53,205 bases of DNA from Planctomycetaceae bacterium (GTDB taxonomy: Bacteria > Planctomycetota > Planctomycetia > Planctomycetales > Planctomycetaceae). The stretch is taken from assembly GCA_900299185.1 (NCBI GenBank), contig OMIV01000093.1:1-53205 (forward strand). The letters are read 5' to 3'. Of the stretch, positions 37,721-41,338 are shown piece after piece. The notes under the pieces are model-generated. The model ran no database searches, was not told the origin of the DNA, and was given only the letters and a program-made list of their open reading frames with translations. Position 1 is the stretch's first letter; the number at the start of each line of letters is the position of its first letter. The position numbers and the translations under genes were made by a program.

Positions 37721-38455
37721 ATGACTGATGGATCCGATCAACCAGCCGAAGTAAGACAACTGACACCAGCTGAACGCCGCATCCTCGGAACGCTTCTCGA
37801 AAAGGGTAAGACAACTCCCGAGTACTACCCCATGACCCTGAAGGGCCTGACGGCGGCGTGTAATCAAAAGAACAATCGCTTCCCGCTGGTGGAGTACAGT
37901 GAAGATCACGTCGAATCCACGCTCGACTCCCTGCAGAAGCTCGGGCTGACCGCCGTGATCTATCCCGAGTCTGGGCGAGCCCTCCGTTATCGACATTACT
38001 TTCGCACGCGGTACGCATTCCCCGAGCGACAAGTCGCCATTCTGACCGAGTTACTGCTTCGAGGTCGTCAAACTCTCGGCGAGTTACGAACGCGAGCAAG
38101 TCGCCTGGAACCCATTGAGGATCTCGACACGCTGCGTGAAGAAGTGAAGGGGCTGGTTGAACGTGGCTATGTGCAAGTCAACGGTCCGCTCGAAATGCGT
38201 GGTGTCGAGGTTGACCACACCTTCTATCTGCCGACCGAAAATCAAACTCTCCCGACGTACTCGGGACCAATAGAGTCAGACGGCGCCGGTCGCACCGCGA
38301 ATGCACCGGCGGTTGAAGCCGTCCCCAATGCCGAGATCACGCGACTGACCGAAGCTCATGATGCACTGCGCGAAGAAGTCGTAGCGTTAAGGGCGACCGT
38401 GGAACTGTTGCAGGACCGACTCGACAAATTGGCGAGCGACTTAGGTGTGAGCTGA
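37721..38455 (+). CDS. YceH-like DUF480 protein
   Basis: 244 residues, cytoplasmic, DUF480 family built of two winged-helix-like domains. Signature segments are LTPAERRILGTLLEKGKTTPEYYPMTLKGL, AACNQKNNRFPL, VESTLDSLQKLGL, RYRHYFRTRY, RQVAILTELLLRGRQTLGELRTRASRL and VKGLVERGYVQ. A C-terminal coiled coil (ITRLTEAHDALREEVVALRATVELLQDRLDKL, in pieces) is typical. DNA-binding is inferred from the fold; function is unknown. ATG 37721 follows GAGGAATG-like sequence. Confidence 0.92.
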   Translation: MTDGSDQPAEVRQLTPAERRILGTLLEKGKTTPEYYPMTLKGLTAACNQKNNRFPLVEYSEDHVESTLDSLQKLGLTAVIYPESGRALRYRHYFRTRYAFPERQVAILTELLLRGRQTLGELRTRASRLEPIEDLDTLREEVKGLVERGYVQVNGPLEMRGVEVDHTFYLPTENQTLPTYSGPIESDGAGRTANAPAVEAVPNAEITRLTEAHDALREEVVALRATVELLQDRLDKLASDLGVS

Positions 38456-38557: not shown

Positions 38558-40303
38558 ATGTCGTCCGAGCAGCGTCCTTCGTCCGTCAGATTCCTCATCG
38601 TTGCCGTCGCGACGTTGATGTCGTTCCTGTTGTACGTCGACCGGTTCTGCGTCTCGTTTGCTGAGGTCTACATCAAGCAAGACCTTGGGCTGAGCTACAC
38701 GCAACTGGCTTGGTTCACGAGTGGCTTCTTTTGGACCTATGCCTTGGCGCAAGTCCCCGCCGGTTGGCTGAGCGATCGCTACGGTGCGCGCATCATGTTG
38801 ACGCTTTACATCGTCACCTGGTCCGTCTTTACGGCTGTCATCGGCGCGGCCAACGGATTTGCGTTGCTCATCATCGCACGCTTCGGATGTGGCATCGGCC
38901 AAGCCGGTGCATACCCGACTGCGGCGTCAGTGATCGCGCGATGGATGCCTACGACGGCGCGTGGCCTCGCCAGTTCGTTCGTGGGTAATGGCGGTCGAGT
39001 CGGTGCGGCGGTGGTGCCAATTATGACCGCCTTCTTGATCGTGCAATTCGTGCCGCTTGGCACTCCTGTCGAAATCACATCGGCCGAGATCGTCGGTCCG
39101 CACGCCATCGTGACGAAGCTGGCGCAACGACTGGATGCTTCTGAAACGCGATCTCTCTTTGAGTCCGTTGGAGTCGAACGAGTAACAGAGCTCAAGGCGT
39201 CATCAGATCGAACTGAAGCGCTCACGGACAAGGCGACTCAAGATTCCGAGCGACTCAAAACGGGAGAGAGCGTTCGCGAACTGCTGCGAGATTGGACTCG
39301 GACCGACGGGCTAATCGCGATCGCTCAGACGGACAAGCAACTGAAGTTCGAACGCGAATCAATCGCCACCCTAAAGAAGCTGCGCGATAAAGAATCGGTT
39401 TCCGAAGTGGAACTCGATCGATTGAAACGCATGACTCTCGAAGCGTTGTTTCCGAACGAGGTCATGAAGCTGTACCGACTTGGCTGGCGGCAAGTGGTGA
39501 TTGTCTATGGCCTGTCTGGAATCGTCGTCGCGGCGTTCTTCTGGTTCATCTTCCGCGAGCGACCTGACCTCCATCCCAAAGTGAATGCCGCCGAACGAGA
39601 GCTCATTCAACGCGGCAAACCAACCGACTCTGGCGAACGCAAACTCGACGGCATCCCGACAAAGGCTCTGCTGACGAGCATCAATCTGTGGGCAAACTCG
39701 TTCATGCAGTTCGGCACCAATGTCGGATGGCTATTCATCTTCACGGGGCTGTCTCGTTACCTGCTCGTTGAGCGGCAAGTGCCAATCATCGAACGCAGCT
39801 TCATGGCCATGCTGCCGGTTGTGATCGGAGTCATCGGCGGTTTCATGGGCGGCAAGCTGACCGATGTTTGGGCCACTCGTTTCGGTGTCCTGTGGGGCCG
39901 ACGCCTGCCGATCTTGGCGTCGCGAGTGTTGGCCATTGGCGGTTACGTTGGCTGCATCGGCGTGTCGTTCTTGCCGACCGATCATCCTTTGAATTCCGCT
40001 TGGACCGTCACGCTGTTGTGTGGCGTTGCAGCCTTTGCGACCGACTTTGGAGCCCCCGCAACTTGGGCGTTTGCTCAAGACATTGGAGGTCGTCATGTCG
40101 CTTCGGTTTTGGGTTGGGGCAACATGTGGGGCAACATCGGAGCGGCGGTCGGTCCCTTGATCTACAACTTCGTGCTGGGAGAAACACCCAAGACCACGCA
40201 GTGGAATTGGCTCTTCGCGACATGTGCTCTGGCCTTCGCGATCTCTGGCTGTTGTGCCTTTATCATGGACGCCACTAAGCCGCTGCTGCGAGATGGCGAA
40301 TGA
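38558..40303 (+). CDS. MFS transporter with a large insertion between TM5 and TM6
   Basis: 581 residues, about twelve membrane helices, of the anion/cation symporter (ACS)-like MFS branch. N-terminal half has YVDRFCVSFAEVYIKQDLGLS, WLSDRYGARIM and ARFGCGIGQAGAYPTAASVIARW, typical of sugar-acid or phosphate symporters. C-terminal half has ITGLSRYLLVERQVP-like FIFTGLSRYL and GGKLTDVWATRFG. Residues 165-305 form a charged, helical insertion between TM5 and TM6, where normal members have only a short periplasmic loop. Substrate unknown. It is followed by the channel gene 48 bp later. Confidence 0.88.
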   Translation: MSSEQRPSSVRFLIVAVATLMSFLLYVDRFCVSFAEVYIKQDLGLSYTQLAWFTSGFFWTYALAQVPAGWLSDRYGARIMLTLYIVTWSVFTAVIGAANGFALLIIARFGCGIGQAGAYPTAASVIARWMPTTARGLASSFVGNGGRVGAAVVPIMTAFLIVQFVPLGTPVEITSAEIVGPHAIVTKLAQRLDASETRSLFESVGVERVTELKASSDRTEALTDKATQDSERLKTGESVRELLRDWTRTDGLIAIAQTDKQLKFERESIATLKKLRDKESVSEVELDRLKRMTLEALFPNEVMKLYRLGWRQVVIVYGLSGIVVAAFFWFIFRERPDLHPKVNAAERELIQRGKPTDSGERKLDGIPTKALLTSINLWANSFMQFGTNVGWLFIFTGLSRYLLVERQVPIIERSFMAMLPVVIGVIGGFMGGKLTDVWATRFGVLWGRRLPILASRVLAIGGYVGCIGVSFLPTDHPLNSAWTVTLLCGVAAFATDFGAPATWAFAQDIGGRHVASVLGWGNMWGNIGAAVGPLIYNFVLGETPKTTQWNWLFATCALAFAISGCCAFIMDATKPLLRDGE

Positions 40304-40351: not shown

Positions 40352-41338
40352 ATGAAGGTGTTGGTTCAAACCGTCGGGCTGCTGCTGGGGCTAACGCTCG
40401 CGGGCACCATCTGCTTTCGGTTTCTGACCGGACAAAGCTGGCTCGATTGTTTGCATCTCTCGGTGATCACACTGTCGACAGTTGGGTCTCGCGATGCTGG
40501 CGATGATCCTGCTACGCGAGCCTTCGTCATCGTCTACATCCTGTTGGGCCTGATTTTCTACAGCTATGCCGCGACTCGCTTGGGCAGCTTCTTGCTCAGC
40601 GATGAATTTCAACGGGCAATTGAGAGGCGTCGGATGCAAAAGCGGATTGATGGACTCAGCGGGCATTCCATCGTGTGTGGCCAAGGTCGCATGGGCATGA
40701 CGATCTGCCGTTACTTGCACGAGCGACACGAGCCGTTCGTCGTGATCGACAATGATGAAGACCGACTGCGCTCGCGCTGTGCAACTCACGATTGGCCGTT
40801 CGTCGTCGGAGATGCGACCAACGACGACATTCTCCGTCTGGCCGGTATCGACCGTGCGAACGCTTTGACGACAGTCCTGCCGACCGATGCCGACAACGTC
40901 TATGTGGTGCTGTCAGCTCGACTGCTCAACAACAGCATTCAGATCATCGCTCGCGCTAACGACGAACGTGCGGCCGAGAAGCTTGAGCGTGCTGGCGCGA
41001 ATCGCGTGGTTTGTCCGATCAACACCGGCGGACAAAAGATGGCTCGCTTTCTCCTTAACCCCAGCATCGAAGACTTCTTGGAGATCGCCGACGCGCATGG
41101 CAACAACTTAGAACTCGACGACATTCAGCTCGGCACCGATAGTCCCTACATCGGCAAAGTTCTCGCAGACACTGATCTCCGTCGCCGCGGCGTCATGGTC
41201 ATCGGCATTCGACGAGCCAACGGAGATCGACTGATGCCGCCGCCCGGTGACGCCCTGCTACACCCTGACGATTGCTTGTTCGTGTTTGGCAACGCCGATG
41301 CCGTCAACGGCGTGCTCGGCGAATCACCGATGAGGTGA
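40352..41338 (+). CDS. Two-TM channel with RCK (TrkA-N/TrkA-C) domain, non-canonical filter
   Basis: 328 residues. Membrane helix 1 (about 5-25), pore helix and filter TVGSRD (43-48), membrane helix 2 (58-80), then a cytoplasmic NAD-binding RCK domain with CGQGRMG (about 110-116) and ending VFGNADAVNGVLG as in TrkA_C. K+ channels read TVGYGD; here Tyr-Gly is Ser-Arg, so K+ selectivity is doubtful. The fold remains that of Kch/MthK-type channels. ATG 40352 has no strong ribosome site. It may be translated together with the MFS gene. Confidence 0.85.
   Translation: MKVLVQTVGLLLGLTLAGTICFRFLTGQSWLDCLHLSVITLSTVGSRDAGDDPATRAFVIVYILLGLIFYSYAATRLGSFLLSDEFQRAIERRRMQKRIDGLSGHSIVCGQGRMGMTICRYLHERHEPFVVIDNDEDRLRSRCATHDWPFVVGDATNDDILRLAGIDRANALTTVLPTDADNVYVVLSARLLNNSIQIIARANDERAAEKLERAGANRVVCPINTGGQKMARFLLNPSIEDFLEIADAHGNNLELDDIQLGTDSPYIGKVLADTDLRRRGVMVIGIRRANGDRLMPPPGDALLHPDDCLFVFGNADAVNGVLGESPMR

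Follow-up and report, generated by a model that had tools for sequence, protein, structure and literature searches.

A two-transmembrane RCK channel of a Planctomycetaceae bacterium with TVGSRD in place of the potassium filter TVGYGD, and its relatives across bacterial phyla

In textbooks, K+ selectivity is recognized by the glycines of GYG; the filter of CNG channels reads TIGETP. Other filters are described in the papers cited here. NaK (TVGDG) has the sites S3 and S4 only and is non-selective (PMC9822992, PMC8689586), and measurements on NirBac1.1 and NirBac1.2, Kir-type channels whose P loops are foreign, showed them to be non-selective (PMC4607889). The RCK-gated GsuK (GFGD) showed a PNa/PK of about 0.2, for which its authors partly blame the Phe in place of Tyr; it is activated by ADP and NAD+, and the GxGxxG...D site lies in its RCK2 (PMC3510474). 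GYX homologues, in which Tyr is kept and the second Gly is replaced, occur in protozoa and in some prokaryotes, with selectivity and function given as unknown (PMC3283738, citing Kuo 2005), and the filters listed there are TIGYRD and GYSD/E. As these prokaryotic homologues are in print, the kind of filter described below is already known as a curiosity. Lastly, in the K+ systems KtrB and TrkH each P loop contains just one conserved Gly (PMC5449183); thus, one Gly need not mean a non-selective filter.

The DNA analyzed here, called the window, is a stretch of 53,205 nucleotides of a Planctomycetaceae bacterium (GCA_900299185.1, contig OMIV01000093.1) and carries planctomycete-type PSCyt/PSD genes. 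The channel gene in it comprises the following features.

40352..41338, forward strand: coding sequence of the 2TM-RCK channel (P0001), 328 aa, ATG start, intact open reading frame
40355..40429, forward strand: TM1 helix, residues 2-26 (AF2 helix; Ion_trans_2 match 11-81)
40439..40480, forward strand: pore helix, residues 30-43 (AF2 helix; contains residue 36)
40478..40495, forward strand: selectivity filter T43-V-G-S-R-D48 at the TVGYGD position (codons, alignment)
40508..40594, forward strand: TM2, residues 53-81 (AF2 helix; includes G66)
40670..41017, forward strand: RCK N-domain, TrkA_N residues 107-222 (Pfam; GxGxxG and D133)
41129..41308, forward strand: RCK C-domain, TrkA_C residues 260-319 (Pfam)

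The protein resembles MthK in the order of its parts and in having one RCK domain per subunit, and the two match in sequence over pore and RCK part. The Pfam domains found were Ion_trans_2 (35.4 bits, cut-off 22.5), TrkA_N (113.8, cut-off 23.8) and TrkA_C (47.5, cut-off 27) only; a cyclic-nucleotide-binding domain and a Kir cytoplasmic domain were absent. According to Pfam and the AF2 model, the 328 residues hold one M1-P-M2 repeat and not four fused ones. The model (mean pLDDT 84.6, input alignment of 61 sequences) consists of helices at 2-26, 30-43 and 53-81 and then an RCK part in which strands and helices alternate. When it was compared with the PDB, the first matches were MthK chains (E 1e-22), and GsuK appeared from rank 16. 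The global superposition was poor (rmsd about 13 Å, TM 0.49), as may be expected of a monomer with pore and gating ring freely placed, and the filter block (residues 41-50) had the lowest mean pLDDT of the membrane part, 70, in this monomeric model.

In the filter, residues 43-48 are encoded by ACA GTT GGG TCT CGC GAT within the context L-S-T-V-G-S-R-D, and in the phmmer alignment with MthK, 'stvgsrda' faces 'atvgygdy'. The preliminary description of this gene had read a two-TM core and an RCK domain with TVGSRD replacing TVGYGD; the codons and the MthK alignment confirm the replacement, and Pfam, the AF2 helices and the MthK fold matches agree on the architecture. The filter is neither TxGYG/TxGFG, as in MthK (TVGYGD), nor TVGDG, as in NaK, which retains the second Gly. 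Compared with the GYX form, the second Gly is likewise replaced, here by Arg, but Tyr has become Ser; moreover, the window family is set apart by being bacterial, widespread and RCK-linked. NaK and CNG channels share with the window protein a kept inner part and an altered outer half of the filter, although CNG channels lack an RCK domain. GsuK shares the GxGxxG...D motif of its RCK2, which also gave the best-scoring RCK stretch, but it has two RCK domains per subunit and the filter TLGFGD in the alignment. The NirBac channels likewise retain a K+ channel architecture around a diverged filter and differ in the filter between close relatives; however, they have a Kir domain and no RCK, and the P loops of NirBac1 are reported to be without homology, whereas TVG is invariant here. 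KtrB and TrkH are similar in their one Gly per P loop and RCK control, and different in their four fused repeats and separate RCK subunit.

Orthologues were then compared within the Planctomycetaceae. Any match at E 1e-3 occurred in 150 of the 170 genomes of the family, and an orthologue over most of the length in 112, the named relatives being Gimesia, Schlesneria, Planctomicrobium, Fuerstiella and Alienimonas. These orthologues were 113 genes at E 1.3e-66 or better, nearly all of full length and two cut by contig ends. The filter was read in all 113 and in 16 of the weaker matches; without the fragments L030 and L122 and the duplicate L043, 110 distinct rows remained. T43 and G45 were present in 110 of 110 rows, and position 44 was V in 102, L in 6 and I in 2. 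Position 46 varied (Y 45, S 39, C 7, F 6, L 6, A 4, H 2, N 1), as did position 47 (R 37, E 25, G 16, Q 11, S 8, A 5, gap 3, H 2, others 3). Among residues 30-48, the entropy was highest at position 47 and third highest at position 46. This pattern indicates that the inner conduction path is selected and that the outer half is not fixed. The second Gly was kept in 16 of the 110 orthologues (GYGE or GFGE) and missing in 94, and the variants included TVGSRD, TVGSRE, TVGCRE, TVGSQE, TVGYED, TVGYRE, TVGLSA, TVGHED and TVGYGE. A subgroup (L026, L027, L032, L035, L068, L073), in which the filter reads TVGLSAT or TVGLATR and an insertion follows it, was less canonical than the window gene. In the more distant paralogues L123, L126-L129, L133 and L135-L138, the filter was GVG(Y/F)GE or GIGYGE, in which the filter Thr is Gly and GYG is intact, so that the opposite half is altered.

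Outside the family, a scan of named contigs with the window protein alone as the query gave 0 confirmed matches; with an alignment as the query, 80 loci were kept out of at least 583. In this 80-locus set, most filters outside the Planctomycetaceae were (T/S)(V/I)G(Y/F)xE, with x mainly K, R or Q, under MAG titles naming Nitrospirae, Thermodesulfobacterium, Geobacter, Myxococcales, Krumholzibacteriia and Aminicenantes. With alignment A1 at E 1e-60, matches were obtained in 70 of 148 genomes of the phylum of the Nitrospirae MAG and in 143 of 247 of that of the Geobacter MAG. The second Gly was replaced in 60 of the 70 distinct rows read from the former and in 30 of the 69 from the latter, where the canonical Gly is thus the commoner state. 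The complete set of 317 distinct rows (from 360, after removal of duplicates and of the fragments L030, L122 and L185) is a similarity-picked sample and no census, and the other-phylum matches in it were fetched in part, the best-scoring being favored. In this sample, position 47 was G 88, R 72, Q 44, K 36, E 34, S 17, M 8, D 6, A 5 and others 7; D or E followed it in 278 rows, an aromatic residue (Y/F) stood at 46 in 255, and G66 of TM2 was the same in 293. The strict GYX form was present in many of these relatives. On these alignments, the altered filter is a stable trait of a large, apparently uncharacterized channel family and not a mutation. In two rows of the Geobacter MAG phylum (L359, L362), the aligned filter lacked TVG (TVAPFE, PATPVS) and may be misaligned or truly altered. 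Three loci, L150 (Opitutales MAG title), L177 (Kuenenia stuttgartiensis) and L184 (Oligoflexaceae MAG), hold channels near the planctomycete family although their contigs are titled as other lineages, and represent either mislabelled or misbinned MAGs, or transfer.

To reconstruct the history of the filter, a FastTree tree was computed from 172 rows without the filter columns and rooted on 13 of the 16 more distant paralogues. Parsimony gave 12 changes of the second Gly, of which one early loss spans a clade of 155 rows in the rooted reconstruction and nine are apparent regains, four of them inside the Planctomycetaceae clade; these event numbers are approximate because the rooting is imperfect (no branch has the paralogues alone on one side, as one row is misplaced), long branches meet and support around the window row is weak (82 or below). 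For the 111-row Planctomycetaceae clade, the ancestral state came out as non-Gly, at a cost of 12 versus 15. In the case of the aromatic residue at 46, the base of the family was a near tie (cost 10 for non-aromatic, 11 for aromatic), and the same reconstruction placed Ser46 of the window in a nine-row clade with its own aromatic loss. A quick IQ-TREE tree of the 110 family rows needed four changes of the second Gly and nine of the aromatic residue. By parsimony, the loss of the second Gly appears to predate the Planctomycetaceae, with apparent regains. Read across the rows, the change at the second Gly is old and shared between phyla, the loss of Tyr is later and repeated, and the half-filter is actively kept. 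The preliminary description, which expected K+ selectivity to be lost and proposed a non-selective or regulated pore or a sensor, is supported in part: it had named orthologues with canonical TVGYGD as a sign of a strain-specific mutation or error, and these numbered 0 among the 110 distinct family orthologues; it had missed the cross-phylum age of the second-Gly loss, the loss of Tyr and the retention of the half-filter.

Selection on the gene was examined in close pairs. Of 28 pairs chosen, the 16 closest had a dN/dS of 0.027-0.096, and the six filter residues were identical within 15 of these 16; accordingly, the channel gene is under strong purifying selection. When columns were ranked by mutual information with the aromatic state at 46, position 46 itself and position 50 were followed by residue 36 of the pore helix, which aligns with a Trp of MthK; in KcsA, the residue at this position packs against the filter Tyr. 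Of the 255 rows with Y/F46, 233 had Met36, and of the 50 with S/A/C46, 46 had L/Q/E36, an association consistent with repacking behind the filter. However, the phylogenetic pair test was not significant (only 4 supported pairs, median p 0.5), with residue 36 following in 1.8 pairs on average and unchanged in 2.2. The covariation is therefore only suggestive, and despite the strong raw association it was dropped as proof of structural compensation.

On balance, we lean towards a functional, homotetrameric, RCK-gated cation channel with half a filter that is non-selective or weakly K+-selective. In such a channel, Thr-Val-Gly 43-45 would provide the inner sites, the counterparts of S3-S4, much as NaK does, and Ser46 and Arg47 in place of Tyr and the second Gly would leave the outer sites dismantled or widened, with Arg and Asp side chains forming a ring around the outer mouth. 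Monovalent cations would pass through the pore with weak or little preference for K+, and the cytosolic RCK ring would probably open or close it with adenine nucleotides. Direct results of the analysis are the domain architecture, the conserved sequence, the purifying selection and the depth in the phylogeny; tetramer formation, ion conduction, low selectivity and the class of ligand are inferences. With NaK, NirBac1.1/1.2 and GsuK as precedents, the most likely outcome is an inner half-filter that conducts and prefers K+ weakly or not at all, and by analogy with NaK, NirBac1.1/1.2 and second-Gly mutants, the likeliest consequence would be loss of strict K+ selectivity. Several points stand against the half-filter: the window filter matches neither the NaK nor the CNG sequence; NirBac2.1 (TTGTD), the NirBac filter closest to it, is described as difficult in expression and purification, and its selectivity was not measured (PMC4607889); second-Gly mutants are said to lose both K+ selectivity and function (PMC3283738); KtrB and TrkH are K+ systems despite their single Gly; the pairing of residues 36 and 46 lacked significance in the phylogenetic test; and the filter block is the least confident membrane segment of a monomeric model.

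The strongest alternative is a one-glycine filter that is still substantially K+-selective in the manner of KtrB and TrkH, K+ systems with one conserved Gly per P loop (PMC5449183); we consider this unlikely, though it deserves serious attention. It is favored by the retention of Y/F46 in 255 of the 317 rows and by the residues used at position 47. In the 226 non-Gly rows, which exclude 3 others without a T/S-x-G motif, V, I or T occurred at 47 in 2 rows (both Thr) and Pro in 0, when V, I and T together make up 22% of the residues in the surveyed proteins; this avoidance of beta-branched residues and Pro would fit a left-handed backbone being kept. However, Asn, which tolerates such a backbone better than any other non-Gly residue, was found in 0 of the 226, and the simple version of this explanation was set aside, the residue usage being suggestive and the absence of Asn speaking against it. 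Moreover, the window protein is without the aromatic residue too, and the fused four-repeat SKT architecture is missing.

A membrane part that serves as anchor or sensor only, with RCK signalling as the function, we judge improbable. By the standard of K+ channels the filter is broken, and GYX proteins were termed possibly non-selective or non-functional (PMC3283738). Yet T43 and G45 are each kept in 110 of the 110 rows and V44 in 102, a retention that would be pointless for a pure anchor, and both the low dN/dS and the GYGE or GFGE filters of 16 orthologues argue against it. The sensor-only role is thus possible and less likely than conduction.

Mixing of this protein, as an accessory subunit, with a canonical K+ channel subunit appears very improbable. 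It would fit the distant paralogues from family genomes, of which 15 of the 16 fetched have the second Gly and 14 of the 16 come from genomes that also carry an orthologue of the window gene. In the source genome (7.87 Mb, 383 contigs, 97% complete), however, no second Ion_trans_2 protein was found at E up to 0.1, so that no canonical partner is visible; the only other match of the window protein there was one RCK stretch at 28% identity. One TrkH lies elsewhere in that genome, which provides another route of K+ uptake.

A sequencing error, a strain mutation or a decaying pseudogene, which the odd motif and the missing orthologue in the single other searched genome of the source genus might suggest, has a negligible chance, since 94 of the 110 family orthologues lack the second Gly, exact TVGSRD recurs in 15 of the 317 distinct rows from 15 genomes and 7 genus codes in independent assemblies, which excludes chance or sequencing error, and the reading frame is intact, with strong purifying selection in relatives.

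In the case of the gating ring, the window protein has G110, G112, G115 and D133 of the GxGxxG...D/E motif, and of the 317 rows, 317, 313 and 315 share the three glycines in this order and 317 have D or E at 133. The Glu pair of the MthK Ca2+ site aligns with R201 and N203; the PDB titles of the MthK matches name E212 and D184. As the aligned positions are not acidic here, MthK-like Ca2+ gating was rejected. With the motif of GsuK RCK2 kept and the MthK Glu pair replaced, adenine nucleotides are probably the likeliest class of ligand for the RCK ring.

In the open-licence literature, no description was found of the RCK-linked family, its spread, the Tyr-less GSR, GCR and GLS forms, the repeated switching or the linkage to hpnE presented below. 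Tentatively, and with more doubt than confidence, we propose that RCK-gated channels of three or more phyla make up a large, uncharacterized class with the one-glycine filter TVG-(Y/F/S/C)-(R/K/Q/E)-(E/D) and long polar side chains ringing the outer mouth. Inside a single orthologous family, the second Gly would have been switched off once and on several times and the aromatic residue toggled, K+ selectivity would be evolvable over a constant gating ring, and hpnE would tie the Planctomycetaceae channel to squalene synthesis. The orthologues form a natural series on the same pore and gating ring (GYG, GYR, GYQ, GYE, GSR, GSQ, GCR, GLS), which could reveal the filter residues that set selectivity where evolution has already adjusted the surroundings. 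The annotation 'potassium channel' may misname the ion of such proteins, and the ion preference of the family is a testable question.

Among the 107 Planctomycetaceae orthologue loci with at least 600 nt upstream (out of 113), hpnE lay directly upstream on the same strand in 47, compared with 0 of 45 loci outside the family with equally long upstream DNA. Three examples are given below.

L041, 2540-3949, reverse strand: hpnE upstream of the channel gene
L022, 2478-3941, reverse strand: hpnE upstream of the channel gene
L152, 4270-5931, forward strand: hpnE upstream of the channel gene

All 47 upstream genes matched the cluster representative over at least 440 residues (E 1.5e-126 or better), and the nine cluster members scanned all matched HpnE (hydroxysqualene dehydroxylase, TIGR03467) with 433-481 bits (cut-off 283). 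The spacing to the channel gene, with the stop codon included and start codons chosen by rule, ranged from start/stop overlap up to 172 nt. Among the linked loci, the S, Y, L, H, A, N and GYGE filter types are all represented. The window gene has no hpnE beside it, and a homologue lies on contig C201 of the source genome. This linkage hints at a possible membrane- or triterpenoid-related role of the channel in Planctomycetaceae.

The window gene itself follows two other genes.

37721-38455, forward strand: YceH (DUF480), upstream of the channel
38558..40303, forward strand: MFS transporter, ending 48 nt upstream of the channel

An operon with the MFS gene is not claimed, the window locus belonging to no MFS cluster among the 45 neighbor clusters listed. 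In the encoded MFS protein, the first MFS_1 match ends at residue 164 and is followed by a charged segment some 140 residues long. A YceH-like gene was near the channel in the window and at six other loci (seven in total), on either side, that of L163 being downstream.
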